Below, piece by piece: positions 1,116-62,474 of a stretch of DNA of 64,000 nucleotides. Position numbers and translations under genes: made by a program. This DNA comes from Anaerolinea sp. Its GTDB lineage: Bacteria; Chloroflexota; Limnocylindria; Limnocylindrales; CSP1-4. The stretch covers positions 62,001 through 126,000 of the forward strand of contig PNKK01000002.1 of assembly GCA_013822395.1 (NCBI GenBank). Reading direction: 5' to 3'. Numbering within the stretch: position 1 is the stretch's first letter; every line of letters starts with the position of its first letter. The notes beneath the pieces are model-generated. The model was not told the origin of the DNA, ran no database searches, and saw only the letters and a list, made by a program, of their open reading frames with translations.

Positions 1116-1172
1116 GCGCAACGACGTCATCTCGAGGCCTATGCCAGGCGCGACTTCCCCAACGGCTCGGGC

Positions 1173-2381
1173 GTGAGCCCGGCACCATCGGAGGTATCCA
1201 TGACCTCGTGGCCCCAGTACGACGCCCCGGCCCTCCGCGCCGCCCGTGCCGAGCGGGTCACTGGATTCATGCGCGCGCGTCATCTCGACCACCTCCTGTT
1301 GACCGGGTTCGACTCGATCCGATACGCCCTCGATGCCCGATTCCAGATCATCTCCGAGGGCTTCGACTGGTTCGTCGCCATCGTTGACGGATCTGGCGAA
1401 GGCGAGGTGTTCGTGCCCTGGGTGGACGAGGACGTCATCGGCCCGGACCCGGACGCGCCCGCGGTCCGGATCGCGCATCCGCTTCCGTCATGGGCGCCCG
1501 CGCTTTCGCAGACCGAGTACTGGTCGGAGGCTGTCGCCGCCGCGCTCTCGCGCCTCGGGGCAAGGCGGGTCGGCTTTGACCTAGTGGATGGGACGCTCCT
1601 GGAAGCGCTGCGTGGAAGGTGCCCGAAGGTGGAGTTCGTGGGCGTCGCTCGAGACCTGTACGACCTCCGGGCGATCAAGCTCCCGTCCGAAGTCGCGCTC
1701 CTGGAGGCCGCATCGACCGTGAACTGCGTGGCCGCCGACGCGGCGATCGATGGTGCGCGTTCCGGGATGACCGACTACGACGTCCTCTCAATCGCGATGG
1801 CATCGCTTCAGTCGGCCGGGGTCGAGTACCTCACGCACTCGCTGTGCAACATCCGGCGCGGGACCGGGACCTGGTTCGCCGTGGGCCAAACGCTCCGGGA
1901 GGGGGACGCCTACTTCTTCGACATCGGTTGTTACGGCCGGGGCGGGTATGCATCCGACATCGCGCGCGTCGGATTCGTCGGAGAGCCGCCCGCCCGAGTC
2001 TCGCAGGCATACCACCATCTCCTGGAGGCTCATCGAGTCGGCGAAGAGGCAGCTCGACCGGGAGTGAGGGTTGCCGACGCGCACGCTGCCATCAACGGAT
2101 ACCTGCACCGCCAGGGGTTCCCGATCACGCCGTACGGGACCGGCCACGGGATCGGGCTCCGGGCGTGCGAGCCGCCGACGATCCACCGCCGCGATCGAAC
2201 GTCGCGCGACGAGACGCTGATCGAAGGGATGACCATCGCACTTGAGCCAGAGACACAAGTCGAGCTCGACGGAGTCTCGATCCTCCTCAAGGTCGAGGAC
2301 AACTACGTCGTGGAGTCGAGTGGCCTTCGCCGCCTGACCTCGGCGCCACGGCCCATGCCGACGAGCGCGATCGTATCCTGA
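1173..2381 (+). CDS. M24 family metallopeptidase (Xaa-Pro peptidase-like)
   Basis: FFDIGCYGRGGYASDIAR, GTGHGIGL and EPETQ metal-ligand motifs of the creatinase/prolidase fold. Confidence 0.85.
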   Translation: MSPAPSEVSMTSWPQYDAPALRAARAERVTGFMRARHLDHLLLTGFDSIRYALDARFQIISEGFDWFVAIVDGSGEGEVFVPWVDEDVIGPDPDAPAVRIAHPLPSWAPALSQTEYWSEAVAAALSRLGARRVGFDLVDGTLLEALRGRCPKVEFVGVARDLYDLRAIKLPSEVALLEAASTVNCVAADAAIDGARSGMTDYDVLSIAMASLQSAGVEYLTHSLCNIRRGTGTWFAVGQTLREGDAYFFDIGCYGRGGYASDIARVGFVGEPPARVSQAYHHLLEAHRVGEEAARPGVRVADAHAAINGYLHRQGFPITPYGTGHGIGLRACEPPTIHRRDRTSRDETLIEGMTIALEPETQVELDGVSILLKVEDNYVVESSGLRRLTSAPRPMPTSAIVS

Positions 2382-2558
2382 GTCCCAAGGCCGGATCGCA
2401 CGGCCGACCTTCGGCCGGCGTCAGCCGGAATACTCGCTACTCGATCGAGCGGTGTTCTCCTCGGGCGGACGGGCATCGGCGCCCGATCGGCCGGGAATAT
2501 CGGCGCAGCGACTGCCATGCGCGAGCAGGAATGGACGGGCAGACTGGGACGGGCCGAC

Positions 2559-3008
2559 CTACTCGTCGCGAACCCGCCCGAACGGGCGCGCGCGGATCTC
2601 CACCCAGACGCCGTTGCGCATGTAGACGTCCTCGCGAAAGAGATCGATCGCGTCCTGTTCCGACGCGGCACGGACGATCGCCACCGTCGCCGATACGTCG
2701 AGGAACGCTCCGACCTCGAGCACGACCCCGGCCGCCTTGAGCGCCTGCATTCGGGCGATGTGCTCGGCTCGGAACGGCGCCCGGGTCTCGGCGGCGTCTG
2801 GCGCGTATGTCGCCTGGACGTGCCAGACAGTCTCGATCGGGGTGGGTGCGGTAGGCTCGGGCACGTTCACTCCAGTGGCGGTGGTGCTCACCCACAGGGT
2901 ACCGGTCCGGTGGTCATCAACTGTCGCCACGTCAACGGTCGCCACGCCGGAACACTGGCACGCCGGAACACTGGCACGCCGGGGGCAACCGTCACGTACG
3001 GGCGCCAC
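2559..3008 (-). CDS. YciI-like / EthD-like small protein (start uncertain)
   Basis: Alpha/beta barrel-like pattern HIARMQALKAAGVVLEVGAFLD...AIDLFREDVYMRNGVW. Confidence 0.55.
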   Translation of the reverse strand: MAPVRDGCPRRASVPACQCSGVATVDVATVDDHRTGTLWVSTTATGVNVPEPTAPTPIETVWHVQATYAPDAAETRAPFRAEHIARMQALKAAGVVLEVGAFLDVSATVAIVRAASEQDAIDLFREDVYMRNGVWVEIRARPFGRVRDE

Positions 3009-3858
3009 CCGCGATCATCGTGATGGCGACCGCGGCAAGGACGATCCCCGCCGCGTGCGAGCGCGTGACGCGCTCGCGCAGGATCGTCGCCGCGAGGAGC
3101 ACCGTCACGACCGGGTAGAGCGACGAGACGACCGCGGCGGTCGCCAGCGCGCCGCGCGCCGCAGTCAGGAACGCCACGTTTCCGATCAGGTCCACCGCCC
3201 CGATGCCGATCGCCAGAGCCCATGACGCCCGCGGCAACCGCCAGGCGCGCCGCCCGGCGACGATGACCGCGGCGAAGACGGCGACCTGGACGCCGCGAAT
3301 GCCGGCCAGCGGCGCGAGCAGGTAGGCGCCATCGACGCGCGAAAGCACGAAGCTGAGAGCCCCGAGCGACAGCCCGGCGAGGATCCCCAGCGGAAGCCCG
3401 GACGGACGATTCGAGCCGTGATCCGGGACCGCTGAGACGATGACGACGGCGATGAGGGCCAGGCCCATGCCGCTCAGGGTGACCGCCGACGGGACGCCCT
3501 CCAGGGCGATCCCGATGAGCGCCGGCGTCATTGCCGTGAGGATCGCCGCGACGGGTGCCACGATGCCCATCCGGCCGACCGCGAGACCTCGATACAGGGA
3601 CGACACCCCCGCGCATGCGAGCAGGCCTGCACCGAGCACAAGGGCAAGGTCACGGACGCCCAGGACCGGCTCTGCCCGGACGACGGTGGCCGCCAGCGCG
3701 ATGAGGAAACCGACGCCCTGGGTCACGACGAGCACTCCGACGACGGGCGACCGCCGGCCGAGCAACCCGCCGCCAAAGTCGGACATGCCCCATGCCGCCG
3801 CCGAGGCGAGCGCGAGCAGTACCACGCTGAGCGACTGCGACAAGACGATCTCGGGCAT
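2992..3858 (-). CDS. EamA/DMT-family transporter
   Basis: About 10 TM segments, two EamA-like halves. Confidence 0.8.
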   Translation of the reverse strand: MPEIVLSQSLSVVLLALASAAAWGMSDFGGGLLGRRSPVVGVLVVTQGVGFLIALAATVVRAEPVLGVRDLALVLGAGLLACAGVSSLYRGLAVGRMGIVAPVAAILTAMTPALIGIALEGVPSAVTLSGMGLALIAVVIVSAVPDHGSNRPSGLPLGILAGLSLGALSFVLSRVDGAYLLAPLAGIRGVQVAVFAAVIVAGRRAWRLPRASWALAIGIGAVDLIGNVAFLTAARGALATAAVVSSLYPVVTVLLAATILRERVTRSHAAGIVLAAVAITMIAGGART

Positions 3859-3886
3859 GCGCGACGCGACGAGGGGACGGCGCCGG

Positions 3887-6058
3887 TCAGGCGACCCCGA
3901 CGGGCTCCCGGTCCACGGCGCTGGGACCATCGAGGACCCGGACCGCGTCCGCGGCGGCGTCGTACCGCTCCGAGGTCGTCAGGTAGATGACCTGGAAGTC
4001 GGCGCTGATGGTACGGAGGAGCTCGAGGGCGCGCTGGGCGCGCTCGTCGTCCAGCGTCACGAACGGGTCGTCGAGCACGAGCGGCGGCCGCCGATCGCCG
4101 GTCACGAGCCGCACCAGTCCGATCCGCGCGGCGAGGTAGACGAGGTCCAACGTGCCCTGGCTGAGTGCGCTGACATCCACCCAGTCGTCGCGCTCCGGGG
4201 CGAAGACCTCGATCCCGAGCGTCGCGTCGTCGACGCGGACGCGCCGGTACCGGCCGCCGGTGACCTGCTCGAGGTCTCCGACCATGTGCTTCTCCAGGTA
4301 GCGGGTGGCGGTGCGCATGGTCGCCCGCTCGGCGGCATCGATCGCCTTGAGCGTGAGGTCATAGACGCGGGCTCGCCGCTGGAGCGTCGCGAGCTGCTCT
4401 TGCCAGAGCGCGAACCGCTCGGCCTGGCCGGCGACCTCCTCGGCGTCCACGGTGTTCTGCTCCACCTTCGCCCGGGCGTTCGCCTCCTCGTCCCGTGCCG
4501 TCTCGACGGCACGCTCGGCATCCTTGACCTCGACCTCGAGCCGCTCTCGGGCGCGCGGCTCCCTGGCGATCGGGCCAAGCTGCTCCAGGGCGCCGCTCTT
4601 CTGGTCGATCTCGAGCGCCGCGGCGTCGCGCAACGACGGCAGGACGTCCGGCGGCTCCCGTCCCACGAGCCCTTCGAGCTGCGCCGAGAGCACGTCGATC
4701 TTCGCGACGTGGGCCTCCTCGGCGGCGAGCAGCGCCTCGGCGGCGGCCATGTCCGGCAGGTCGAGGCTGGACAGTTGGTTGGCCATCGCCAGCTCCGCCT
4801 CCCGGAGCTCCTGCTCGAGCAGCGATCGGCCGCGCAGCCGCCGATCGATCTCGACGTCCCGGAGCTCCTTCTGGCGTGCAAAGCTGGTGGCCGAGATCCG
4901 CTGACGTCGGCCGACGAGCGCCAGCACCAGTCCGACGAGGACGAGCCCGAGCGGGACCCCGAAGCCGCCGGGGAGCGCCAGGACTTCGAACTGGCCGGCG
5001 GCTGCGATTGCTGCGCCCGCGACGATGAAGGCGATCGCCGCAATCGCGGTCGGACGCCACGAGCGCGGCTGCGGGACCTCGAGGTCGTACTTGACCTCGA
5101 CCTCGCCGGACAGGATCGCGCGGAGCTCGCGCATCCGCATGTCCAGTTCGCGGAGCCGGGCGATCACCGACCGCAGGACCGGTAGCGGATCGCGCGCCGG
5201 GTGGGCGTCCTGGAGTCTGGCGATCTCGTCCGAGACCTGGACCGCGGTGCGGTAGCGCTCGAATCGCTCCTGGGCTGCGTCGCGGTCGGCGATGAGGCGC
5301 TCCGCCTGGCGCGCTTTGTCGAGAAGCGACCGGCGCTCGGTGAGCGCCGCGTCCGCCTCTGCCCGCTGTCCGCGCGCGAAAGCCAGCCGGTCCCGATCCC
5401 GCTCCAGCCGCGCGAGTGCGGCCTCGCCCTGCTCCAGGGCCGCGCCCGCCTGCGCCACCGCGGCCTCGGCGACCTTCAGTCGCCCGGGATTCTTCTCGCC
5501 GCGCGTGCTCAGCTCATACAGCGCCTTGTCCAGCTTCTTCCGGGCTCGGCTCGTGCCGCGATCGGCGCCGGAGATCGATGCCTGGAGTCGATCTCGCAGG
5601 GCGCCCTCGTCCCGGGCAAGGTCGGCCACCTCGTGGTGGCGGACCGACGCGGTTGAACGGAAGAACGCCTCGGTCGGGACGCCGGTGAGCTCGGCGAGCA
5701 CCTGGTCCGCGAGCGCCGGGTCATTGATGGCCTGGCCGTCGTACTCCATCCGGACGGTGCCCTTCACGCCCCGGAACGCCTTCTCGACGAAGCCGGTGTG
5801 GACGCCGTCCTCCTCGTCCTGCTCGAATTCGATCCGCACCACCGGTCTGGCGTCCTCGGCAGCGCCCCATGTTCGGAGCCCCTCGATGTCCGCCGACGCC
5901 GACGTGACCCGCCGCGTGAGCCCGAGCTCGACGGCTCGCTGGAGCGTCGTCTTCCCCGACTCGTTGGGGCCACGCACGATCGTGAGGCCGCGAGCCAGCT
6001 CGAGGTCGAGGTCCCCGTGCCGACGCAGGTCCTGGAGGCGAAGGCGGGTGATCCTCAC
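3887..6058 (-). CDS. SbcC/YhaN-like AAA ATPase with coiled coil
   Basis: N-terminal GPNESGKTTLQRAVE Walker A, coiled coil, C-terminal LVLDDPFVTLDDERA Walker B; overlaps the SbcD-like gene stop/start. Confidence 0.85.
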   Translation of the reverse strand: MRITRLRLQDLRRHGDLDLELARGLTIVRGPNESGKTTLQRAVELGLTRRVTSASADIEGLRTWGAAEDARPVVRIEFEQDEEDGVHTGFVEKAFRGVKGTVRMEYDGQAINDPALADQVLAELTGVPTEAFFRSTASVRHHEVADLARDEGALRDRLQASISGADRGTSRARKKLDKALYELSTRGEKNPGRLKVAEAAVAQAGAALEQGEAALARLERDRDRLAFARGQRAEADAALTERRSLLDKARQAERLIADRDAAQERFERYRTAVQVSDEIARLQDAHPARDPLPVLRSVIARLRELDMRMRELRAILSGEVEVKYDLEVPQPRSWRPTAIAAIAFIVAGAAIAAAGQFEVLALPGGFGVPLGLVLVGLVLALVGRRQRISATSFARQKELRDVEIDRRLRGRSLLEQELREAELAMANQLSSLDLPDMAAAEALLAAEEAHVAKIDVLSAQLEGLVGREPPDVLPSLRDAAALEIDQKSGALEQLGPIAREPRARERLEVEVKDAERAVETARDEEANARAKVEQNTVDAEEVAGQAERFALWQEQLATLQRRARVYDLTLKAIDAAERATMRTATRYLEKHMVGDLEQVTGGRYRRVRVDDATLGIEVFAPERDDWVDVSALSQGTLDLVYLAARIGLVRLVTGDRRPPLVLDDPFVTLDDERAQRALELLRTISADFQVIYLTTSERYDAAADAVRVLDGPSAVDREPVGVA

Positions 6059-17497: not shown

Positions 17498-17594
17498 TGG
17501 CGGGAGCGCATGGGAGTCGAACCCACCGCGCGACGCCGGGCGCCGCGCCACCGGTTTTGAAGACCGGGAGGCCCACCGGGACCCACCCGCTCCC
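17498..17594 (-). tRNA. selC: tRNA-Sec (anticodon UCA; CCA encoded)
   Basis: GGGAGCG/CGCTCCC acceptor, CTTCAAA anticodon loop (TCA at 17558-17560), long variable arm, GGTTCGACTCC T-loop; 25 nt upstream of selA. Confidence 0.93.
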
Positions 17595-17607
17595 ACGATC
17601 GTGAAAC

Positions 17608-17623
17608 GGGCTCCCAGGAGCCC
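17608..17623 (-). terminator. Short hairpin between integrase stop and tRNA-Sec
   Basis: minus strand GGGCTC-CTGG-GAGCCC followed by GTTTC. Confidence 0.4.
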
Positions 17624-18760
17624 CTACGGGACCTGATCGCCCCCCATTCTGCTGCGCGTTCTGCTGCGCGCCAACATCGCCTCCACGCCGCCAGCCACCT
17701 CTCGCAGCCGCTCCGCGACGGGGTGGGAGTAGGTGTCCGAGGTGAGGGCGATGGTGGAGTGGCCGAGCATCTGCTTCACGTCCTCCAGACTGTGCCCCGC
17801 GGCGAGCATGAGGGTCGCCGCGGTGTGCCGCAGGTCGTGGAAGCGGACACGCGGCAGGCCAAGGCGGTCGAGCGTCGCGTGCCACTCCAGGCTCAGTTCT
17901 CGGCGGTGCAGCGGCATCCCCCGCTGGGAGGTGAACACGAGGCCCTCCGGGGCGCCGTTCCGCTCCGCGGCCTGGCGGAGCCGGTGCGCGTGCAGGGCCT
18001 CCACCGCAATGGGGGTCAGGGGGATGACGTGGCGCGAGCCGGCCGTCTTGGGCGCCACCAGCCGCCACTCACCCGCGACCCGGGCGAGGGCACGCTCGAC
18101 CCGCATCGTCGCCCCGTCCAGATCGAGCTCTGTCCAGGCGAGCCCCAGGAGCTCCGACTGTCGCTGGCCGCTGGTGACGGCCAGGGTCCAGAGGGCGTGG
18201 AGCCGATCCTCTCGACTGCCCTCGATAAGGGCCGCGGCCTGATCCGCCGTCAGCGTGGAGAGCGAAGGCTTCTCCACCCGTGGGGACCGCGAGAGGGCGG
18301 CCACGTTGCGCGCCACGAGGCCGTGGCGCATCGCGTCGTTGAGGGCGTTGCGCAGGACCGCGCGATGGTGAGCCACGGTCCGCGGCGCCGCCTGGAGGGA
18401 GCGGAGGTAGTCGTTGACGGCGAACACCGAGAGGGTGGAGAGCCGCTGTCGGCCCAGCTCCGCGGTCAGGTGGCGGACGATAAGGAGGTAGTGCTCGTAG
18501 GTCCGGGGCCGCACGGTCGGCCGGATGTCAGCGAGCCACCTCGCGAGGTAGCTGCCAAGGCTGTAGTTGCCCCGCGGGTCGAGCCCGGCGTCGCGCGCCC
18601 GAAGCAGCTCGACCAGCTTCGCCTTCGCCTCCTTCTCGGTCGCGGCGTAGGCGGTGCGCCGACCGTAGGGCGTGGACACAGCGGCGACCCAGCACCTCGT
18701 CGTCCGCGTCTTGCGCCGGATGGTCCGCCCGTAGATGCTGCCCTCGTGGTGACCGCGCAT
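17624..18760 (-). CDS. Tyrosine site-specific recombinase (phage integrase)
   Basis: SGQRQSELLGLAW, FHDLRHTAATLMLAAG, LGHSTIALTSDTYSH catalytic boxes. Confidence 0.95.
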   Translation of the reverse strand: MRGHHEGSIYGRTIRRKTRTTRCWVAAVSTPYGRRTAYAATEKEAKAKLVELLRARDAGLDPRGNYSLGSYLARWLADIRPTVRPRTYEHYLLIVRHLTAELGRQRLSTLSVFAVNDYLRSLQAAPRTVAHHRAVLRNALNDAMRHGLVARNVAALSRSPRVEKPSLSTLTADQAAALIEGSREDRLHALWTLAVTSGQRQSELLGLAWTELDLDGATMRVERALARVAGEWRLVAPKTAGSRHVIPLTPIAVEALHAHRLRQAAERNGAPEGLVFTSQRGMPLHRRELSLEWHATLDRLGLPRVRFHDLRHTAATLMLAAGHSLEDVKQMLGHSTIALTSDTYSHPVAERLREVAGGVEAMLARSRTRSRMGGDQVP

Positions 18761-50443: not shown

Positions 50444-51910
50444 TCACCGGCTCGCGCTCGTGAAGTAGAACTCGGTGCCGCCGAGGTCGGCGGCGTAGAC
50501 GGCGGCGTCCACGAGGTCGTCATGCTCGCCGTTGGGGAAGGCGAGCAGTTGCGAGGGCAGCTCGCCGAGGTCGGTCGGGCCGGTCCCGAGCCCCGGACCA
50601 CCGCGCAGGAACGAGACCTTGCGCCCCTCGAAACGCGCCGCCAGCGCCCGTGCCCGGGTCACCTTGTCCTTGTCCGGGTAGACCGGCATGGCCGGCAGGC
50701 GGGTGTTGCGCAGCACCTCGCGGACGAACGTGCCCTGGTGCTGGGTCGCCTCGATGTTGAGTGCCTGGAGCTCCCGGGCGCGCTCGGCGGCGACCGGGTG
50801 TGGTGCCCGCCAGCCGACGAACCCGGCCGGCAGCAGCTTCATCGGCCAGAGCAGGCGCGGGCCAGCCGGGTTGCTGCCGGCGGTCTCGACGTACGTCCCG
50901 TCGTCCTGCCGCCCGGTGAGCCACAGCCGGTGGCCCTCATCGAGGCGCGCCTGCCAGGCGCCGACGATGTAGAGGTCGCGCTCGGGCGTCTCGATCGCCT
51001 CGACCCCGGCGGTGTAGTCGGACCGCTCGGATGTCGAGCTGGCGAGGTCGAGCCCGAACCGCCGACCGCCCTCGGGCACGTTGTCAACCCAGCCGAACCA
51101 CTCGCGCTTGAAGATGTTGCCGCCCATCCCCGAGGGGTCGTTCTGATACTGGAGGTCATACAGCGCCGAGCCCATGTCGAGGCGCTTGGCGAGGAGCGCC
51201 TCCATCCCCCACAGCTCGGGCCACAGCGTCGAGCCGTCGTCCCCGAGCGCCTTGCGCACGAGGTGCGGCCATCCCTTGCGGATCAGCTCGGCGTAGAAAT
51301 CGTCCTCGTGCCAGCGGGTGCCGGCGAACCAGCGCACCCCGTCGGGTACGACCATCGGGTCGACGACCTGCCAGTACGCCTCCGACGCGCGCTGGCGCTG
51401 GCCGGCCGTCGTGTTCTCGGTCCGGCCCACGATGTCGTCGCCGATGAGGATGTCGAGGCGCGGCCCCGGCTTGGCCGACAGCAGGGCATCGGTCAGCATC
51501 GAGTGGTCCTTGCCGAGGGCCACGCCCTTGACGGTCCACTCGGCGTCGGTCCACTTGTCGCCCGTGACCCCGTCCTGCGCCCACTCGAACACCTCGGCGA
51601 ACTTCGGCGACTCGACCATGCTGCGGATGGCCCGTGAGCGCGCCATTGCATCGCCGCCGACCGAGGTCAGGACACCGATCCGCTTCTGTCCCCGGTGGAC
51701 GCCGACCAGCCGAGCCGCACGATGGAGCAGCGCCGTCGTCTTGGCATGGCCGCGCGGCTCCAGCACCACACCCTTCGGGTGCCGATCGAGGAACCGCGAC
51801 AGCTCCCACAGATGGGCCGGGAAGACGAGGTCGGAGACGTACTCTGCGAAGGCGGCGTCGCTGGTCATGGCGAGCCGGCGCAGCTCCCGCCGGTAGCTTA
51901 TGCGAGGCAC
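50444..51910 (-). CDS. Terminase large subunit
   Basis: PRGHAKTTALLHR Walker A, LDILIGDDIVG, GLDLASSTSERSDYTAGV nuclease motif, NGEHDDLVDA. Confidence 0.92.
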   Translation of the reverse strand: MPRISYRRELRRLAMTSDAAFAEYVSDLVFPAHLWELSRFLDRHPKGVVLEPRGHAKTTALLHRAARLVGVHRGQKRIGVLTSVGGDAMARSRAIRSMVESPKFAEVFEWAQDGVTGDKWTDAEWTVKGVALGKDHSMLTDALLSAKPGPRLDILIGDDIVGRTENTTAGQRQRASEAYWQVVDPMVVPDGVRWFAGTRWHEDDFYAELIRKGWPHLVRKALGDDGSTLWPELWGMEALLAKRLDMGSALYDLQYQNDPSGMGGNIFKREWFGWVDNVPEGGRRFGLDLASSTSERSDYTAGVEAIETPERDLYIVGAWQARLDEGHRLWLTGRQDDGTYVETAGSNPAGPRLLWPMKLLPAGFVGWRAPHPVAAERARELQALNIEATQHQGTFVREVLRNTRLPAMPVYPDKDKVTRARALAARFEGRKVSFLRGGPGLGTGPTDLGELPSQLLAFPNGEHDDLVDAAVYAADLGGTEFYFTSASR

Positions 51911-51920
51911 CCGACGTGCC

Positions 51921-52088
51921 TCACCGCCGCCACGCCGGACGAAGGATCAGCGCGCCGAACACCTTGGACATCGGCTCGCCACACAGCGCGCAGCGCGGCA
52001 CCGGTGGTGCGTAGCCGATCGGCGAGGTCGTGGTCCGCACAGCCGGCGGCTCGTGGCGGCGGCAGACGAACTCGTGGTCCACGCTCAT
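51921..52088 (-). CDS. 55-aa CxxC small protein between terminase subunits (not in supplied ORF track)
   Basis: MSVDHEFVCRRHEPPAVRTTTSPIGYAPPVPRCALCGEPMSKVFGALILRPAWRR; start overlaps upstream stop. Confidence 0.55.
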   Translation of the reverse strand: MSVDHEFVCRRHEPPAVRTTTSPIGYAPPVPRCALCGEPMSKVFGALILRPAWRR

Positions 52089-52612
52089 GCCTCCTCCGTG
52101 TCGTCCCGCGCGGCGGCCTCCAGCTCATCGGCGTGGAGCCGGAAGCGGCGCGCCTGCTCCTCGGGTGAGAGGGCGTCGAGCGGATGGCTGCTCTCGACCC
52201 GAACGGGCCCGCCAGCGGCGCCGGTCAGCTCGACCCTGCGCACGTCGATCCCCGCCAGTTCGGCGATCCGCTTGGCTGCGTCGAGGCGGAGCTTCTGGTT
52301 CGCGATCTCCAGGACGGTCCCGCGCTTGGCGGCAGCGCCCTGGGTGGCCTCGGCGAGCACGCTCCGGGCCTGGGCGATCATGTCCGCCCGGATGTCCTCA
52401 TTCGGACTGACATAGGCGAGGTGGCCATCGCGGATCGCCTTGATGTGCTCCCGCACCTGCCGCGCACCGATGTGGATGGGGTCAGGCTCGCCCTTCTCGT
52501 TCTTCGCGCCGGCCAGGAGCACACGGATGCGCTCGGCGGAGTAACCGGCGAGGTGGAAGCGCTCGATCAGCTCGCGGGTGCGGCGAAGCTTGGCCTCGGT
52601 CGGGCGAGCCAT
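52085..52612 (-). CDS. Terminase small subunit-like DNA-binding protein
   Basis: HTH-like N-terminus, coupled to TerL cluster. Confidence 0.7.
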   Translation of the reverse strand: MARPTEAKLRRTRELIERFHLAGYSAERIRVLLAGAKNEKGEPDPIHIGARQVREHIKAIRDGHLAYVSPNEDIRADMIAQARSVLAEATQGAAAKRGTVLEIANQKLRLDAAKRIAELAGIDVRRVELTGAAGGPVRVESSHPLDALSPEEQARRFRLHADELEAAARDDTEEA

Positions 52613-53052
52613 CAGGCGACCTCCCAACGGAGCTTCTCCTGGGTGGGGTGCATGTCGACGCGCGGGCGCCCATCGCGAGACCACGTGCCACCGCCCGCCT
52701 CGCCGATCAGCCGGAACCCCGCCGCGCGGAGCGACGAACCGCCCTCCTCGGGGAGCGTGTAGGTAACAAGCCGGCGGTAGCCCATCGCCCGCGCCGCGCG
52801 CCACGCGGCGCGGTAGAGCATCGAGCACGCGTTCCTGCTGCCGTCAGTGGCGAGACGCGTCACTTCGCACGTCCAATCGTCGTCGAGCACCCGCGCGACA
52901 GGGCGGCCGACGATCACGACACCTACAAGCGCGGGCGGCTCAGCGAGGCCAATGGCGAACAGCCCGCCTTGGGGCGCTCGATGATGGCGATGCATTCGAT
53001 CGACGTAGGCGCGCGCCTCGCGCAGGGTCAGCGGGACCAGCACGAGGGCCAT
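52612..53052 (-). CDS. XF1762-like GNAT-related protein
   Basis: LTLREARAYVDRMHRHHRAPQGGLFAIGL...VGVVIVGRPVARVLDDDWTCEVTRLATDGSRNACSMLYRAAWRAA. Confidence 0.7.
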   Translation of the reverse strand: MALVLVPLTLREARAYVDRMHRHHRAPQGGLFAIGLAEPPALVGVVIVGRPVARVLDDDWTCEVTRLATDGSRNACSMLYRAAWRAARAMGYRRLVTYTLPEEGGSSLRAAGFRLIGEAGGGTWSRDGRPRVDMHPTQEKLRWEVA

Positions 53053-53077: not shown

Positions 53078-53572
53078 TTAGAACTCCAGCGTGCCCTGCC
53101 TGAACGTGGGCGGCGGTGGCGTCGGGCGGTGCGACGGGGCGAACTCCCCGGCCGCGATCCGACGCAGGATGCCCGGGTCGCCAGGCGGGACCGAGTGCTG
53201 GAGCGAGCCCGGCGGCGGCGGCGCATCGGGGTGCCAGAGCATCTGCCGCACGTCGGCAAAGCCCTTCCACGCCGGCGCGACCGTCCATCCGGCCTCCAGC
53301 CACTCGACGTACCGCCAGAAGGTCCGAGCCCCGCTGAACCGGCAGTGGATGACCATGTGGCACCGGAAACACAGCTCGAACGCCCCAATATGAGGCCCGT
53401 ACGGCGCCGAGTAGTCCTCGCTGTGGGCCATGATCTGCCCGGCGGTCTGTCCGCACGCCTGGCAGCGGACCGGCCTCGCACGTCGCCCGGCGACGTACTC
53501 GCGCTTCAGCCAGTTGTAGGCGCGCATCCGCTGGTCGCCCGTGAAACCGTTGTACGTCGCGAGGATGCTCAT
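53078..53572 (-). CDS. Zinc-binding/HNH-like phage protein
   Basis: CQACGQTAGQIMAHSEDYSAPYGPHIGAFELCFRCHMVIH. Confidence 0.6.
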   Translation of the reverse strand: MSILATYNGFTGDQRMRAYNWLKREYVAGRRARPVRCQACGQTAGQIMAHSEDYSAPYGPHIGAFELCFRCHMVIHCRFSGARTFWRYVEWLEAGWTVAPAWKGFADVRQMLWHPDAPPPPGSLQHSVPPGDPGILRRIAAGEFAPSHRPTPPPPTFRQGTLEF

Positions 53573-53610
53573 ACGAATGTATCTTACCACACATGCCGGC
53601 GTCCTTCCAA
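53570..53610 (-). promoter_or_regulatory. Promoter with operator covering the start codon
   Basis: TTGGAA-N18-TAAGAT; operator GATACATTCGTATG 53570-53583. Confidence 0.55.
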
Positions 53611-53979
53611 GATGACGCGCGTCACGGTTGTCCCCGAGCGGGTCCGGCTCTCGCTCGCGCGGCGGAAGCCGAGCCGGTCGTAGATCCGGGGGTCGAGCGC
53701 GATGGCCTCGATCCGGGCCGGCGCGACCCGGTCGATCAGCCCGGTCAGGAGCATGGTGCCGTAGCCCTTGCCGCGCTCACCGGGCAGGGTGTAGGCGCCG
53801 CGGAAGCGGTAGCCGTTGCGGAGCGGGAGCAGCCCGGCGAAGGCCACCAGGCGGCCGCCGTCGAAGACGCCCCACCAGTCGGTCGGCGTGGCGCCCTCGG
53901 ACAGCGAGACGTGCTCCTTCGCCGCGCGCGAGGCGTACGGCCGGACATCGTCGTGGGCGATCGGGCGCAGCTCCATCAT
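53584..53979 (-). CDS. GNAT N-acetyltransferase
   Basis: GAYTLPGERGKGYGTMLLTGLIDR; IYDRLGFRRASESRTR. Confidence 0.75.
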   Translation of the reverse strand: MMELRPIAHDDVRPYASRAAKEHVSLSEGATPTDWWGVFDGGRLVAFAGLLPLRNGYRFRGAYTLPGERGKGYGTMLLTGLIDRVAPARIEAIALDPRIYDRLGFRRASESRTRSGTTVTRVILEGRRHVW

Positions 53980-54536
53980 TCGCCCTGCACGTCTTCGAGC
54001 CGCGCCCGCTTGCGGCCCTGCTGGTCGGTGCCCGACTCGACCGGATACCACGCCTTGCTGTACGTCCACTCGCCGACACGCTTCGCCGCGAACACGCCCT
54101 CGGCGTAGAGCGTCTCGATCTCCTCGCGCGTAGCCCCCAGCTCGATCCCGACGGCCTCGGCGCTCATGCCGAGGTCATCGATCAGCTCGCGCACGACGGC
54201 GTGCATCTTGACCGCACCATGGACGCCCTTCGCCCGGTTCATTCGCACCGTCAGCACGATGGCCTCGGCGCGATCGACGTTGAGCACAGCGCACGGCACC
54301 ATGCCGGCGTAGCGCCCTTGGAGGTAGGGGCTATCCTTCGACAGGCGGTACCGGTGATAGCCGTCGATGATCGTGCCATCCGGCGACACGAGTAGCGGCT
54401 GAGTCCACCCGGTCTCCAGGATCGAGCGCTCCAGGAGCCTCAGCTCGGGGCGCAGCACCACGTTCGGGTTGTACGAGTTAGGGTTGAGGCTGTCGACGTG
54501 TCGCCATTCGATGCGGTTGATCGGGTCGTCAAACAT
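53976..54536 (-). CDS. ParB/sulfiredoxin-fold protein, IbrB-like
   Basis: LNPNSYNPNVVLRPELRLLERSILETGWTQPLLVSPDGTIIDGYHRY. Confidence 0.75.
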   Translation of the reverse strand: MFDDPINRIEWRHVDSLNPNSYNPNVVLRPELRLLERSILETGWTQPLLVSPDGTIIDGYHRYRLSKDSPYLQGRYAGMVPCAVLNVDRAEAIVLTVRMNRAKGVHGAVKMHAVVRELIDDLGMSAEAVGIELGATREEIETLYAEGVFAAKRVGEWTYSKAWYPVESGTDQQGRKRARLEDVQGE

Positions 54537-55638
54537 CCTGGTCCCTCAGCATGGCGGCGGCCTGATCTCGGGCGAGGCTCACCGGGAAGATGCCCTTGTG
54601 GTACGAGCCGCCGACGAAGATGGCGAGCAGGTGATCGAGCGGGAAGTAGTCGGGCTGGGCCCGCACCCGAGGCTCGACGCCGCGCAGCTTCTTGAGCGCC
54701 TCGGAGCGGTCGAGCGGGTCCTCGATGCACTCCATGATGTAGCGCCGGATGCCCTCAATCGACTGGCCATACTCGGCCAGGAGCGCAGCCCGCCCGGCCT
54801 CCTGATTGAACTCGGACCAGTAGCGCGCCTGGACCGCGACCTCGGGGAAGACGCCGAGGATGGCGTCGAAGAACTCGGGGTCGTAGTCGCGCAGCACGTC
54901 GATCCGCTTGGCGCTCTGCGGGTGGAGCGGCGTCGAGACGCGGAGCGCGTTGCCTCCCCCACCCCATAGCTGGTGGTCGTAGGTCGGGGCGTAGTGGAGG
55001 TCGTGCTCCCACATGAACCGCCAGACGTCCATTTCCAGCCAGTCGTAGATGGGGCTCGCGGTGAACACCCGGGTGCCCTTGCGGGGCACGATGTAGTTGT
55101 CGTGCAGCCGCGAGACCACACCGCGGTAGCGGTAGATGCTCTCCTGGGCGCGCAGTCCCAGGAGCACCGCGACGCGGCCCCGGCCCGGCGCGAAGTGGTC
55201 GGCGATCAGCGGGTTGAGGTCGTGCTGCTCTAGGACCCGGGTATCTCCATCGGGCAGGGACCAGCTCCCCTCGGGCTTAGGGCGGACCCACTCGCGGGCC
55301 GGGTCCCACTGGACGTAGCGCATCGTCCGGCCGAGGATGAACTTGCGCGAGGCGAGCGGAACGGTCAGCCACAGCAGGTTCACCCAGGGCAGCGCCCGGT
55401 AGCGTTCGACCTGGCTGATGACGCCCGACGGGATGACCTCCTCGTCGTAGAACAGGACGTTGACCCGATCCTGCCCGCGCTCGATCGCCACCTCGTGCGC
55501 CAGCTCCAGGACCACCTGGCTGTCCTTGCCGCCGGAGAAGCTGACCACCACGCAGTCGGCGAGGTCGTAGATGTGGTGGAGCCGCCTGCGCGCCTCGGTC
55601 AGGATGTCGGTCTCCACGTACTGCTTGCGCCTACCCAT
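54529..55638 (-). CDS. PAPS reductase-family protein, IbrA-like
   Basis: CVVVSFSGGKDSQVVLELA PP-loop; RAQESIYRYRG; ASPIYDWLEMDVWRFMWE. Confidence 0.85.
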   Translation of the reverse strand: MGRRKQYVETDILTEARRRLHHIYDLADCVVVSFSGGKDSQVVLELAHEVAIERGQDRVNVLFYDEEVIPSGVISQVERYRALPWVNLLWLTVPLASRKFILGRTMRYVQWDPAREWVRPKPEGSWSLPDGDTRVLEQHDLNPLIADHFAPGRGRVAVLLGLRAQESIYRYRGVVSRLHDNYIVPRKGTRVFTASPIYDWLEMDVWRFMWEHDLHYAPTYDHQLWGGGGNALRVSTPLHPQSAKRIDVLRDYDPEFFDAILGVFPEVAVQARYWSEFNQEAGRAALLAEYGQSIEGIRRYIMECIEDPLDRSEALKKLRGVEPRVRAQPDYFPLDHLLAIFVGGSYHKGIFPVSLARDQAAAMLRDQDV

Positions 55639-56218
55639 CGAGCGCCTCCCGGACCAGGGCATCGAGCCGCTGGGGGAAGGTGTCGAGGTCCTCGTAGCGC
55701 GTCTTGAGCCATCGCCCGAACGCCCGCCAGCGCTGGAGCTGGACCGCGTCGTCCCACACGATCGTGTCGCTCACATTGACCGTCTGCATCGCCGGACGGG
55801 GCACGCCCTTGACCGACAGGACCACGTCGTCAACGTCCTCGCCGTCGTAGCCGGTCCCGGTCAGGTTGCGCGATTGGGCCTGCTCGGTGAGGAGGGAGGT
55901 CAGGACCTTGTTGTCATACCAGGCCAGCTCGGCGAGGCGGTTGTCGGCCACGAGGTAGGCGGCCGCCTCGACGTCGTCGAGATCGAGGACGTGCGCCGCG
56001 ATGTGCGTCCAAGCGAGCGCCCTGGCGGCGCGCAGGAGGTGGTTGCCAGCCACCACGTAGCCAGTCGAGCGCTGGACCACGATCGGGCGGAGCTGGCCGA
56101 ACCGCTTGAGGCTCTCGGACAGCGCCCCGACATCGCCCTGACGAGGATTGGATGGGTGAAGCTGGACGGACTCGATGGGCACCACCAGCCCGCGGAGATC
56201 ATCTGCGATCAGCGCCAT
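55631..56218 (-). CDS. ParB-like N-terminal domain protein
   Basis: LVVPIESVQLHPSNPRQGDVGALSESLKRFGQLRPIVVQRSTGYVVAGNHLLRAA. Confidence 0.8.
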   Translation of the reverse strand: MALIADDLRGLVVPIESVQLHPSNPRQGDVGALSESLKRFGQLRPIVVQRSTGYVVAGNHLLRAARALAWTHIAAHVLDLDDVEAAAYLVADNRLAELAWYDNKVLTSLLTEQAQSRNLTGTGYDGEDVDDVVLSVKGVPRPAMQTVNVSDTIVWDDAVQLQRWRAFGRWLKTRYEDLDTFPQRLDALVREALDG

Positions 56219-56655
56219 CAGGCCGCCCTGCCCTTCCGGTTCAGCTCACGGATGCGCTCGCCGATCCACCGTCGACGCTCGCGCACTTCCGGTGGGTAGC
56301 CGGCGCGACCCGGGTTGCGGGTCCCACGGGCCAGCTCCAGGGCCAGCTCGGCGCGCTCTCGCTTGCTCACGAGGTAGGGCAGCGCGGCCTCCAGCAGCGG
56401 TACCACCTGCTGCGTGTTCAGGTAGTAGTGCCACGTGTCCTTGACGCCCGGGCGGACCTGCACGCGGACTTTGCCGGGCCACCGCTCATTCACCCAGTCG
56501 ATGAGCCCTCGATCCGTGTTCGAGATGTCGACCCGCAGCTCTGACCACGTCGCAGGTGAGTGGCCTGGCCTGCGCTCGTGCTTCTGGTTCGCCATGATCG
56601 AGCCCTCGCCGTCGATCAGCCCCGCGAGGTAGGCGCAGTCGGTCGCCGCACTCAC
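56218..56655 (-). CDS. LAGLIDADG-family endonuclease-like protein
   Basis: AYLAGLIDGEGSIM near N-terminus. Confidence 0.75.
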   Translation of the reverse strand: MSAATDCAYLAGLIDGEGSIMANQKHERRPGHSPATWSELRVDISNTDRGLIDWVNERWPGKVRVQVRPGVKDTWHYYLNTQQVVPLLEAALPYLVSKRERAELALELARGTRNPGRAGYPPEVRERRRWIGERIRELNRKGRAA

Positions 56656-57488
56656 GACTCGGCCCTCGTCTTCACGCTGTGGTGGCTATGGCAGAGGCTC
56701 TGGAGGTTGTCCTCGTCGTCGGTCCCGCCGGCGCGCTTGGGAACGCGGTGGTCGACGTCGGTCGCGGGCTCGCCGCACCCCACCCCGTCGGTCTCCCACT
56801 GGCACGTCGGGTGGGCCTCCAACTGGCGCGCTCGGGGACCGCGGCGCCAGGCCGAGTCGTAGCCGCGGCTGTTGCTGTTGGGCCGGGGCTTGCCGGCGTC
56901 AGGTGCCGCCTGCTCGATGTAGGCACTGATCCGGGCCGCCATCGTCGGCGCGTCCGGGTCCCGGTTGCGGAGGTGGTTGAGAAAGGCGATCCAGCGCTCG
57001 TACTGCGCGATCGTCTCGAACCGGAGGGTCGAGGTGAACGACTCGGAGACCCACTGGTCAACCTCGACCTTGACCCGCTCAGCGATCAGCGCGTCGGCCT
57101 CGTCGGGCGCGTAGCCGGTGCCGGCAAGGGCATCGGTGTCGCGGAGCTGCCCCACCACCTCGGCGAGCGCGTCCCGGTCGTAGCTGCCAAGGTCGCTCGT
57201 GCGATTGTCGGCCAAGAGGTAGGCGACGGCGTCCTCGTCGGACAGCTCGACGACCGCCGCGGCGACCTTCTTCCAGCCGAGCGACTTGGCGGCCAGGAAG
57301 ACGTGGTTACCCGCGACCACGTAGCGGGTCGACGCCTGGACCACAACTGGCTTGACCTGCGAGAACCTCGTCAGGCTCTCGGCGATCCGCTCGACGTCGC
57401 CGTGACGGGCATTCTGTGGGTGGGGCCGGATGCTGTCGATCGGCACGACTAAGCCGGCCAACTCCTCGGCGATCCGCTCGACGCTCAT
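56652..57488 (-). CDS. ParB-like domain fused to HNH nuclease
   Basis: N-term LVVPIDSIRPHPQNARHGDVERIAESLTRF...YVVAGNH; C-term HPTCQWETDGVGCGEPATDVDHRVPKRAGGTDDEDNLQSLCHSHH. Confidence 0.85.
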   Translation of the reverse strand: MSVERIAEELAGLVVPIDSIRPHPQNARHGDVERIAESLTRFSQVKPVVVQASTRYVVAGNHVFLAAKSLGWKKVAAAVVELSDEDAVAYLLADNRTSDLGSYDRDALAEVVGQLRDTDALAGTGYAPDEADALIAERVKVEVDQWVSESFTSTLRFETIAQYERWIAFLNHLRNRDPDAPTMAARISAYIEQAAPDAGKPRPNSNSRGYDSAWRRGPRARQLEAHPTCQWETDGVGCGEPATDVDHRVPKRAGGTDDEDNLQSLCHSHHSVKTRAES

Positions 57489-58392: not shown

Positions 58393-58767
58393 TCATGCCA
58401 CGATGTCCAGTCTTGGGCGTCCGAGATGGCCCTCACGCACACCACGAATGGCGTGGCAGTTCGCGCATCGGATTTCACACTTCGCGATTTCGGCGAGCAG
58501 CCGATCCCACGAGCAGGTCAGGGCCTTCGAGATGTCGAATGACTTGGTCGCTGGGTCCACATGGTCGAAGTGGAGAGCTGCCGAGTGTTCTCGGTATCCG
58601 CAATCGACGCACCCGCGCTCAAGCTTGATCCCGTTGATCGCCGTGAGCCTCTCGGCGCGAACTAGGGCAACCTTCTCGCGTGACTTCTTGCGACTGGCGA
58701 CTGGATCGCGCCAATAGGAAGCGCGAGCTGCATCCCGGTCGCGCTGCGCCTTCGCCGCGGTCCTCAT
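58393..58767 (-). CDS. HNH endonuclease
   Basis: GCVDCGYREHSAALHFDHVDPATKSF...CEIRCANCHAIR. Confidence 0.8.
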   Translation of the reverse strand: MRTAAKAQRDRDAARASYWRDPVASRKKSREKVALVRAERLTAINGIKLERGCVDCGYREHSAALHFDHVDPATKSFDISKALTCSWDRLLAEIAKCEIRCANCHAIRGVREGHLGRPRLDIVA

Positions 58768-59424: not shown

Positions 59425-59665
59425 CGTACTGCCGTTCGTCCGCCGACAGGCCGGCCCCGTCCCAGCCGCGCCAGCTTGACTCGGGCGGGACGAACCCGGG
59501 CCCGCCGCCCTGCTCGTCGTCCATCCAGACCGCCAGGTTCAGGAGACCACCGCGGGCGCCATCGCTCGTCATGTAGAGCGTCGCTTGGACCCGCTGGTTG
59601 ACCACTGCATCTGGCAGGGCCTTAGTTCCGCCAATCGGAATGTCGGTCAGGTCAAGCTCAGTCAT
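59375..59665 (-). CDS. Hypothetical phage protein
   Basis: MTELDLTDIPIGGTKALPDAVVNQRVQATLYM. Confidence 0.55.
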   Translation of the reverse strand: MTELDLTDIPIGGTKALPDAVVNQRVQATLYMTSDGARGGLLNLAVWMDDEQGGGPGFVPPESSWRGWDGAGLSADERQYVAAALYVLALRVADHG

Positions 59666-60054
59666 CCCGCCACTCCATCCAGAGGACCAGCGCCATCGCG
59701 GACACGAGCATCGCCACGTAGAGCACCGGGAGCAGGCTGATCGGCATCGGGTGACTTCTCCTGGGTGGCTAGGTACGCTCGCAGTGCCGGGCGGTGGCCA
59801 GTCGCCCAGCCGTACAGGTGGTGCCACTCGCAGAGCGAGACGAGCGAGTTGGGCCGCGATGGGGCACGCTTGCCCATCGCCGGCGCCGCCTTGACGTGGT
59901 CGAGGGTGAGGCGACCACGGCACGTCGCCGGGTCCTCACCGAGCGCCACCGCCACGCAGCCGCGGTCGCGATCGAGGACCGCAAGCCGGAGCTCGGGGGT
60001 CACCGGGTCCGTTCGACGGGCGCCTGGAGAGCGCCGGAGCGGCGCCCTACGCAC
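59662..60054 (-). CDS. HNH endonuclease
   Basis: VLDRDRGCVAVAL...RLTLDHVKAAPAMGKRAPSRPNSLVSLCEWHHLYGW. Confidence 0.75.
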   Translation of the reverse strand: MRRAPLRRSPGARRTDPVTPELRLAVLDRDRGCVAVALGEDPATCRGRLTLDHVKAAPAMGKRAPSRPNSLVSLCEWHHLYGWATGHRPALRAYLATQEKSPDADQPAPGALRGDARVRDGAGPLDGVAG

Positions 60055-60365: not shown

Positions 60366-61232
60366 TCAGGCGACCGTGAGCTGGCGCGCCATGTGGTGCG
60401 CTCGATGGAAGTGGGCCTCGGACGCGACCCGCGACACCATTCCCTTGAGGGCCTCTGCCTTGGCGCCGACCAGCTCGGCGTTGCCGGCGTGGACGCCGGT
60501 CGGCAACAGCTCGGCCACCCGGCTGAGCGCCTGCGCGGCGCGATCCAGTTCGGCCAGCAGGTCCCGAGCGGAGCGCATCCGCTCCACCGACAGGGACTCG
60601 ACCTCGTCCTCGCCGAACATCGCGCCCTGCTGCTCCTGGAGCGCGAGGTGCCCGGTCAGCCGGTCGAGGTCATTCTGGTAGCGGAGATCGCCAGCGCTCA
60701 TGGCGCGCATGACCCGGAACTGGCCCTCGTGCGAGAGCCGAGAGATGTGGCCCGCGCTCCAGGCATCGAGCTGCCCACTGGCGACGAGATCACGGAGCTG
60801 GGGCGCGAGCCTGTGGAGCCTGAGCCGGGCGCGGATGGCGCTCTCGGACTTGCCGATCCGGGCAGCGAGTTCCTCAATGGTCATGCCCGTGTCCAGCAAC
60901 CGCTGATAGCCGTCGGCCTCCTCGACCGGGTTGAGGTCGTGTCGCAGGACGTTTTCGACGAGGGCCACCATGAAGGCGTCGGTGCCTTCGAGATCGCCCC
61001 TCACCACCACCGGCACCTCGGAAAGGCCGGCCATCCGCGCCGCGCGCCAGCGGCGTTCGCCGGCGATGAGCACGAACCGATCCCCGACCGGCCGCACGAC
61101 CAGCGGCTCGACCACCCCGAGGCTGGCGATGCTGTCGGCGAGCTCGGCCAGGGCCGCGCGGTCGAAGTGTCGACGCGGCTGATCCGGGTCGGGATCGATG
61201 GCGTCGAGCGGGAGCGCACGAAGGTCGGTCAC
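60366..61232 (-). CDS. ParB/Spo0J-family protein (GTG start)
   Basis: IDPDPDQPRRHFDRAALAELADSIASLGVVEPLVV...LIAGERRWRAARMAGL; HTH EELAARIGKSESAIRARLRL; no ParA nearby. Confidence 0.88.
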   Translation of the reverse strand: MTDLRALPLDAIDPDPDQPRRHFDRAALAELADSIASLGVVEPLVVRPVGDRFVLIAGERRWRAARMAGLSEVPVVVRGDLEGTDAFMVALVENVLRHDLNPVEEADGYQRLLDTGMTIEELAARIGKSESAIRARLRLHRLAPQLRDLVASGQLDAWSAGHISRLSHEGQFRVMRAMSAGDLRYQNDLDRLTGHLALQEQQGAMFGEDEVESLSVERMRSARDLLAELDRAAQALSRVAELLPTGVHAGNAELVGAKAEALKGMVSRVASEAHFHRAHHMARQLTVA

Positions 61233-61288
61233 GACTCGGTCTCCTCGTAGGGTGGGAAGTCTGTTGGCCGGCAGGCGGTTCCGTTCAT
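61229..61288 (-). CDS. 19-aa leaderless upstream peptide MNGTACRPTDFPPYEETES overlapping parB start
   Basis: ATG six nt after TAGTCT -10; stop TGA overlaps GTG of parB. Confidence 0.5.
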   Translation of the reverse strand: MNGTACRPTDFPPYEETES

Positions 61289-61294
61289 GTCCAA

Positions 61295-61336
61295 AGACTA
61301 CCACCATAGGGTGACTATGTCAATACGTTTGTATTG
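61295..61336 (-). promoter_or_regulatory. sigma70-like promoter with overlapping operator
   Basis: CAATACAAACGTATTGACA-N17-TAGTCT on minus strand. Confidence 0.72.
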
Positions 61337-61350
61337 GCAGGGCGGGCGGG

Positions 61351-61833
61351 CTACCCCGGCCGCGCCGGGTCGTACCGGGCGCCGGCGAGCTGGGCCGCGG
61401 CGTAGGCGACGGCGGCGGCGGCCGTGGCGAGGTCGGGATAGACGAACGCCACATTGGCCAGCGCGAACCGCCAGGACTCGCGGTCGGCCGGCGTCCCCGC
61501 GACCGGCAGCACGCGGATACCACGTGCGGTCGCGTAGCCGATCTCGAAGCCCGTGCCGCGGCCGCTCTCATCGGCCAGGAGGTAGGCGACCACGAGGTCG
61601 GCACGCCCGATCGACACGAGGTCCGCCGGCACGTAGAAATCGGGCCGGTCATCGGCCGCGGGCGCTCCCGGAATGTTCGCGCCCGGCCGGATGGTCAGCG
61701 GATACGGCCAGTTCAGCCCGCCATGCTGCCGCCACGCCGTGGACAGCGCCAACTCGAACTCGTCGCGCCACAGCGCGTTCGGTCCGCGCACCGGGCCGGC
61801 GAGGTAGACGGCCAGCCGATCATCGGTTGTCAC
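61351..61833 (-). CDS. Nucleoside 2-deoxyribosyltransferase-like protein
   Basis: VYLAGPVRGPN...ADLVVAYLLADESGRGTGFEIGYA. Confidence 0.75.
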   Translation of the reverse strand: MTTDDRLAVYLAGPVRGPNALWRDEFELALSTAWRQHGGLNWPYPLTIRPGANIPGAPAADDRPDFYVPADLVSIGRADLVVAYLLADESGRGTGFEIGYATARGIRVLPVAGTPADRESWRFALANVAFVYPDLATAAAAVAYAAAQLAGARYDPARPG

Positions 61834-62474
61834 TGTTCGTCCACCCGGGTGATGCTGGCCTCACTCGAGAAGCCCGCGCCGTACCGACGAGTGAGCTTCG
61901 CGGTGTTGTGGGCGGCGACCTCGGAGAGGGCGAGGCCGTACGCGTCGGCGAGGGCGGCGACGTACCAGAGGACATCGCCGAGCTCGGCGCGCATCCGGTC
62001 CCGGTCCTCCGGATGCCCGTGGCCGACCTCCTTCTTTACCAAGTCAGCGACCTCGCCAGCCTCGCCCGCGACGCCGAGCCCCAGGATGGTCCGGCGGAAG
62101 CCGAGATCCTCAGCGAGGGCCGCCGTCCGAAGCGCGTGGCGCTGGTAGTCGTCGAGGAGCCCCGCCGCGCGCAGCGCGTCGAGCTCCTTGCGGGTCACGA
62201 GCGCGAGCCCGGCATCCTCCACCGCCCGACAGAAACGGTCCGCCTCGGATCGGTAGAACCCTGCGCCGTCTTCATAGCTGCCGAGGCGGCGTGCCCCGAG
62301 GGTCCCGGCGAACAGGGCACGCGCCAGCGCCTCAGCGCTCACTTGACCAGCAGCCAGTACGTCCGGCGGTGGCACTGGTCGCAAGGACCCAGGCCGTACT
62401 TCGGATGGAGGGTCGGCGCGTCGGGCTGAAGCCGTCGCTCCGTCTGACATCGCGAGCACCGCCAGATGGGCCAT
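61830..62474 (-). CDS. MazG-like nucleotide pyrophosphohydrolase
   Basis: LGVAGEAGEVADLVKKEVGHGHPEDRDRMRAELGDVLWYVAALAD. Confidence 0.82.
   Translation of the reverse strand: MAHLAVLAMSDGATASARRADPPSEVRPGSLRPVPPPDVLAAGQVSAEALARALFAGTLGARRLGSYEDGAGFYRSEADRFCRAVEDAGLALVTRKELDALRAAGLLDDYQRHALRTAALAEDLGFRRTILGLGVAGEAGEVADLVKKEVGHGHPEDRDRMRAELGDVLWYVAALADAYGLALSEVAAHNTAKLTRRYGAGFSSEASITRVDEQ

Follow-up and report, generated by a model that had tools for sequence, protein, structure and literature searches.

In this study, we analysed a stretch of 64,000 nucleotides of Anaerolinea sp. DNA (contig PNKK01000002.1, positions 62,001 to 126,000), hereafter the window, in which a gene for a PP-loop ATPase of the 'PAPS reductase' family stands between genes for ParB/Srx-fold proteins, just upstream of a phage terminase. 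We found that five genes of this run, from position 56218 down to 53078, form an operon that is present in dozens of unrelated phages: ParB1 (ParB1b in the window), the PP-loop ATPase, ParB2, a GNAT acetyltransferase in a position that we call slot 4, and a small zinc/HNH-like protein. The product of this operon is probably a hypermodified base in the DNA of the phage itself, and the most likely purpose of such a modification is escape from host restriction. The genes of the region are the following:

56652-57488, minus strand: ParB1a, a ParB/Srx fold with a C-terminal HNH nuclease domain (ParB_N 5.6e-7, HNH 6.2e-7, phrog_723 9e-37)
56218-56655, minus strand: LAGLIDADG homing-endonuclease-like gene (weak Pfam match, 0.018; YLAGLIDGEGSI motif; phrog_5046 3.5e-23)
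55631-56218, minus strand: ParB1b, the upstream ParB/Srx-fold protein (ParB_N 1.3e-7; phrog_8071/723)
54529-55638, minus strand: PP-loop ATPase, 'PAPS reductase' family (PAPS_reduct 2.5e-11; phrog_2302 2.4e-95)
53976-54536, minus strand: ParB2, the downstream ParB/Srx-fold protein (phrog_2159 9e-67; IDGxHR and RxNRAKGxH motifs)
53584-53979, minus strand: GNAT acetyltransferase of slot 4 (Acetyltransf_1 9.9e-8)
53078-53590, minus strand: zinc/HNH-like small protein (CxxC ... HxEDY ... CxxCH ... H; alternative start ATG at 53572)
52612-53052, minus strand: XF1762-family/Mom-like gene (NCBIfam XF1762 1.1e-58; phrog_1384 9e-37; Pfam Mom 27.1 bits, exactly the cut-off)
52085-52612, minus strand: putative small terminase subunit (by position only, directly before TerL; no substantial family match)
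50444-51910, minus strand: TerL, the large terminase subunit and anchor of the slot (phrog_38 5.5e-60)

The window belongs to a 132.5 kb contig of a metagenome-assembled genome of 2.9 Mb that is 70% complete. Transketolase and other host genes lie to the left, an integrase gene (17624-18760; phrog_1, 8e-65) directly adjoins a tRNA-SeC gene (17498-18760 for the two together), and tailed-phage structural genes are present (tape measure, major head protein, portal/head morphogenesis proteins); the region is thus an integrated tailed-phage prophage. tRNA-SeC is an uncommon tRNA for integration, and its gene is the likely attachment site of this prophage. For the PP-loop gene, the open frame extends to 55662 and the ATG at 55638 agrees with the homologues. 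The original prediction, made from the sequence of the window, described five overlapping genes (53976-57488) upstream of terminase, and indeed all five open reading frames are found there, with short overlaps, on the minus strand, with TerL downstream (51910-50444). Their membership in one system was borne out for ParB1b, the PP-loop protein and ParB2 but not for the LAGLIDADG gene and the HNH fusion. Nor does the run end at 53976, since the GNAT, the zinc protein and the XF1762/Mom-like gene continue it and the first two are conserved members. Thus, two of the five proposed parts are passengers while two genuine parts had been missed.

Relatives of the PP-loop protein were gathered from named phages, IMG/VR and GTDB genomes, and their neighbours were counted on 59 non-redundant loci with hidden Markov models built from these same loci. 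A single-sequence query of the viral and genome contigs gave no match, its patterns being too specific, and an alignment query succeeded. The recurring order starts with one or two ParB1 genes, continues with PP-loop, ParB2, GNAT or methyltransferase and the zinc protein, and ends in HNH and/or TerL; in some phages, the PP-loop gene is followed by slot 4, the zinc protein and ParB2. ParB1 is found in 50 of the 51 loci with upstream room and ParB2 in all 43 loci with downstream room, while among 80 viral loci retrieved with a Mom-like query, unrelated to the operon, its families occur in 0 to 2. This co-occurrence is therefore far above chance. As an independent second query we used an alignment of the zinc protein, of which a 15-row version was too diverse and a five-row version succeeded. 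It recovered the same operon, with a PP-loop gene in 34 of 40 newly found loci; five of the other six are contigs ending before that point. The sole intact zinc-protein locus devoid of a PP-loop gene (L267) encodes ParB1, then an SNF2-type helicase fused to an N6/N4 DNA methylase (1053-3242) that takes the place of PP-loop, ParB2 and slot 4, then the zinc protein. Altogether, as anticipated, the linkage reaches far beyond an IbrA/IbrB pair, through ParB1, slot 4 and the zinc protein; a linkage confined to the pair, which would have counted against the original prediction, was not observed.

Slot 4 itself is exchanged between two unrelated enzymes. Among the 59 loci, 28 carry the GNAT, 23 a methyltransferase, none both and eight neither, so that the PP-loop gene is accompanied by one or the other in 51 (hypergeometric P = 5e-10 for mutual exclusion, kinship ignored). 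The GNAT was assigned from Acetyltransf_1/7 matches; the S-adenosylmethionine-dependent methyltransferase from phrog_11826, from Pfam methyltransferase matches below the cut-off and from a DxGxxxG-type motif in the alignment. The idea that the two might be one family was discarded on an hhalign probability of 0.2%. Kinship was addressed through PP-loop trees, on which GNAT and methyltransferase switch at least eight times (careful tree, n = 40) or 14 times (quick tree, n = 58). One pair of loci (L271 and L281) caught such a switch: their PP-loop proteins are 97.7% identical, ParB2 99% and ParB1 92%, whereas slot 4 holds the GNAT in one and the methyltransferase in the other. DNA similarity is 93% up to the end of ParB2 and returns (84%) inside the zinc gene, which indicates that a single exchange replaced slot 4 together with the front part of the zinc gene. 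The swapped stretch covers 4712-5261 in L271 and 5456-6184 in L281, with one breakpoint within the zinc-protein gene.

The zinc protein has eight invariant residues (C43, C46, H56, Y60, C74, C77, H78 and H82, in the CxxC, HxEDY and CxxCH...H motifs). Its tree tracks the type of slot 4, with 5 changes versus about 20 in shuffles; the zinc protein is thus inherited together with the finishing enzyme and not with the PP-loop core. Its AlphaFold2 model (mean predicted local distance difference test, pLDDT, 88) has no significant match in the PDB, the best being a weak one to a Cas5-HNH chain (E 1.5), so that its kinship with HNH proteins has a motif basis only. This exchange pattern is what would be expected if the core makes one intermediate that slot 4 decorates in alternative ways. 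In a literature search largely confined to papers outside subscription, we found no description of the five-gene operon or of the GNAT/methyltransferase exchange.

The position of the operon is also informative. In Bclasvirinae, gene 1 encodes a ParB homologous to ParB1 and TerL lies a few genes on; ParB1a of the window and gene 1 of the Rosebush-group phage Kheth, which is of the same species as Rosebush and stood in for it, share 32% over 151 residues. Between gene 1 and TerL, Kheth carries DpdA/TGT, QueC, QueD, QueE and FolE, and Obutu carries the PP-loop and ParB2 genes. Since ParB (49% over 139 residues) and TerL (60%) are common to both phages, the slot is homologous in Kheth and Obutu. 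Elsewhere in Bclasvirinae and other actinophages, it holds a (weak) TET/JBP-like gene, ADDT and a hydroxylase-like gene (LilMcDreamy), TET/JBP with ADDT (JAMaL), TET/JBP alone (KayaCho), a ParB-methyltransferase with a second methyltransferase (Gordonia phage Evaa) or a 7-deazaguanine set (Marvinvirus Nadezda); the Bclasvirinae TET/JBP matches are below the Pfam cut-off and the ADDT matches above it. Some of these genes beside the gene-1 ParB (in L298, L299 and L173) are labelled 'hypothetical' or 'queuine tRNA-ribosyltransferase' and match TET/JBP and ADDT, so that some Bclasvirinae annotations look wrong.

Apart from the present module, these are DNA-modification genes that are either proven or recognised as such. 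In Rosebush, about 28% of G is present as dPreQ0 and the DNA resists several restriction enzymes (PMC6884629), and ORF1 of Rosebush-type phages was proposed to be a homologue of DpdB, of the ParB superfamily (PMC6392294). The genome of Rhodococcus phage Tonitrus starts with ParB, TET/JBP, aGPT-Pplase2, a kinase and a hypothetical gene, which have been interpreted as a thymidine hypermodification set (PMC11955845), and phage cytosine carboxymethylation genes are also accompanied by ParB-domain proteins (PMC12783734). The PADLOC MTase_II model matches ParB1 (6.6e-15) over its N-terminal ParB domain, a domain that is also fused to type II DNA methyltransferases. As 7-deazaguanine, TET/JBP and methyltransferase sets and the present module alternate there, the slot is one at which DNA-modification cassettes are traded among phages, with a ParB always alongside.

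The operon resembles these cassettes and differs from each of them. With the Rosebush-type cassette it shares the slot, from the homologous gene-1 ParB to TerL, and the pairing of a ParB partner with a PP-loop enzyme (QueC in Rosebush-type phages), but it has no TGT or Que genes, its PP-loop enzyme is of another family, and it adds a second ParB, the GNAT or methyltransferase and the zinc protein. The TET/JBP cassettes of LilMcDreamy, KayaCho, JAMaL and Tonitrus, for thymine or cytosine hypermodification, likewise occupy the slot, place ParB first and modifying enzymes next, and decorate bases in several steps; the operon is devoid of their oxygenase, aGPT-Pplase, ADDT and kinase.

Three features of the window had to be separated from the conserved operon. 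The LAGLIDADG gene gave only two matches across the loci searched, the window and the copy of the window in its own genome, and is probably a selfish element that inserted between two tandem ParB genes. Among the relatives, ParB genes in tandem upstream are common, whereas the HNH fusion is uncommon and the HNH domain is a sporadic neighbour. We therefore rejected both as parts of a conserved system, which leaves the 'matching nucleases' of the original prediction unsupported. A GmrSD type IV restriction enzyme was also considered for the ParB-HNH fusion and rejected, as only ParB_N and HNH (PF01844), and not DUF262 or DUF1524, were matched. The XF1762/Mom-like gene adjoins the operon in the window and is a DNA-modification-related neighbour, not a conserved member: such a gene lies near the PP-loop gene in one of 43 loci. 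Its XF1762 match is far stronger than its match to the Mom family of phage Mu, and this family differs from the GNAT of slot 4. In one IMG/VR locus (L120), a Mom-like gene (3555-4037) comes directly after a PP-loop gene (2428-3558).

The PP-loop protein bears on the kind of chemistry involved. All 58 relatives carry the SGGKDS and GxRxxESxxR motifs, and the AlphaFold2 model of the protein (pLDDT 85) resembles, in the PDB, FAD synthase (first), CysH, TilS, CysD and TtuA. The long branch of the window protein makes its placement in the PP-loop tree uncertain. DNA sulfur modification, in which a DndC- or IbrA-like enzyme would put sulfur on the DNA backbone or on a base, finds some echo in a weak profile similarity to DndC and BrxP (1e-7 to 1e-8) and in the link to DndC suggested for PAPS-reductase-like proteins of M. 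abscessus prophages, which have no assigned function (PMC8092301). Moreover, 51 of the 58 proteins retain one cysteine, at position 225, which could serve in those as a LarE-type sacrificial cysteine. However, neither the CxxC dyad of DndC nor the C-terminal ECGxH redox motif of CysH occurs in any of the 58. Position 225 is alanine in the window protein, six others also do without this cysteine, and one protein (L268) is free of cysteine while its GNAT-type operon is complete, which argues that persulfide chemistry is unneeded in at least some members. Furthermore, desulfurase, DndD and DndE were not found among the operon proteins scanned, and a finishing acetylation fits poorly with a phosphorothioate. 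The likeness to Dnd/Ssp (DndC) and type-4 BREX (BrxP) is thus one of a PAPS-reductase-fold PP-loop enzyme, together with the ParB-superfamily DndB in Dnd, while the operon is phage-borne, lies beside terminase and lacks a conserved cysteine pair. By the features tested, it is not a Dnd/Ssp, CysH or GmrSD system. We consider sulfur modification unlikely: of the predicted sulfur or nucleotide modification, the nucleotide part is well supported and the sulfur part is at odds with the cysteine content.

It is improbable that the operon is a transcriptional regulator of the IbrA/IbrB kind, controlling prophage or host genes on unmodified DNA. The adjacent PP-loop and ParB2 genes are homologous to IbrA/IbrB-type pairs of bacterial genomes and prophages, and loci with the pair only dominate in cellular genomes. 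Those pairs come without ParB1, the GNAT or methyltransferase and the zinc protein, and full-length proteins of the phage type are rare in cellular genomes. Regulation does not predict the exchange in slot 4, the linkage to the zinc protein or a slot common with modification cassettes, and DNA modification could itself account for regulation.

Packaging-linked marking, where the modification or the ParB-HNH protein would mark phage DNA for the terminase, draws on the location of the operon. TerL lies downstream on the same strand in 19 of the 20 loci in which it was found (an undercount, as detection used four seeds), and an HNH domain sometimes adjoins it. However, Rhizobium phage L338C has no annotated TerL closer than 6 kb to the operon, and in Bacillus phage 022DV001, whose operon lies at the right end, none is annotated beside it. 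Since the slot beside terminase holds ordinary protective cassettes in related phages, such as the 7-deazaguanine operon whose product protects against restriction enzymes (PMC6884629), the packaging role put forward in the original prediction is not needed and, in our opinion, very improbable. Finally, a role in sulfate assimilation, in line with the filing of the PP-loop family in PHROGs under 'moron, auxiliary metabolic gene and host takeover', is scarcely credible for a conserved operon with two ParBs, a GNAT or methyltransferase and a zinc/HNH-like partner, no other sulfate-assimilation gene, and a PP-loop family in which none of the 58 proteins has the CysH catalytic motif.

Returning to hypermodification of phage DNA, we can propose a tentative scheme. 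ParB1 and ParB2, as nucleotide-binding proteins of the ParB/Srx fold, would bring the enzyme to the DNA or drive its reaction, a role already proposed for DpdB, which accompanies DpdA. Like TilS or QueC, the PP-loop ATPase may adenylate a base, or a carried precursor, and introduce a nitrogen nucleophile; it would then not be a persulfide sulfurtransferase. The enzyme of slot 4 would then cap the installed group, by acetylation in the window (GNAT) or by methylation in other phages, and the co-inherited zinc/HNH-like protein may assist this capping. As the product can be completed with an acetyl or with a methyl donor, we infer an intermediate with an amine-like nucleophile. This chemistry of the PP-loop and slot 4 enzymes is possible rather than probable. 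The same caution applies to the wider idea of a new DNA hypermodification family, in which a cysteine-independent PP-loop enzyme and two ParBs would adenylate a base and attach an amine, to be N-acetylated or N-methylated by interchangeable finishing enzymes, each with its matched zinc protein.

Several points weigh against DNA hypermodification. That DNA is the substrate is suggested by genomic association; a gene neighbourhood cannot show the substrate, and the target of the GNAT or methyltransferase could be a protein or a small molecule. Cellular relatives are mostly the PP-loop/ParB2 pair alone (71 of 80 genome loci), and IbrA/IbrB of E. coli are transcriptional activators of eib genes. 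Sulfur chemistry may also still operate in most members, as most keep Cys225.

Other genes of the window surround this region. A separate, genuine ParB (60366-61307; ParB_N 1.7e-27, HTH_ParB 2.7e-16) differs from the short ParBs that the operon encodes. Two short Cys/His-rich, HNH-looking open reading frames (58393-58767 and 59662-60054) lie just upstream of the operon on the same strand, with no confident family match for either. A MazG nucleotide pyrophosphohydrolase is also encoded upstream (61830-62474; 4.8e-13); enzymes of the MazG type are able to trim nucleotide pools.

Our results give the phage genes for 'PAPS reductase' and paired 'ParB-like nuclease', often annotated as metabolic or partition genes, a testable role in DNA hypermodification. 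If the proposal is true, phages would gain a switchable end group against host restriction, and the IbrA/IbrB pairs of many bacteria would form a cellular branch that also modifies DNA. Natural isolates with the same core and an acetyltransferase, a methyltransferase or neither offer a ready comparison: Arthrobacter phages Laroye and Shrooms and Bacillus phage 022DV001 are of the methyltransferase type, and Mycobacterium phages Phlyer and Obutu, which grow on M. smegmatis, have the core only. Relative to the core base, the predicted mass shifts are +42 (acetyl), +14 (methyl) and 0 (neither), and the chemistry of IbrA/IbrB would thereby become measurable.

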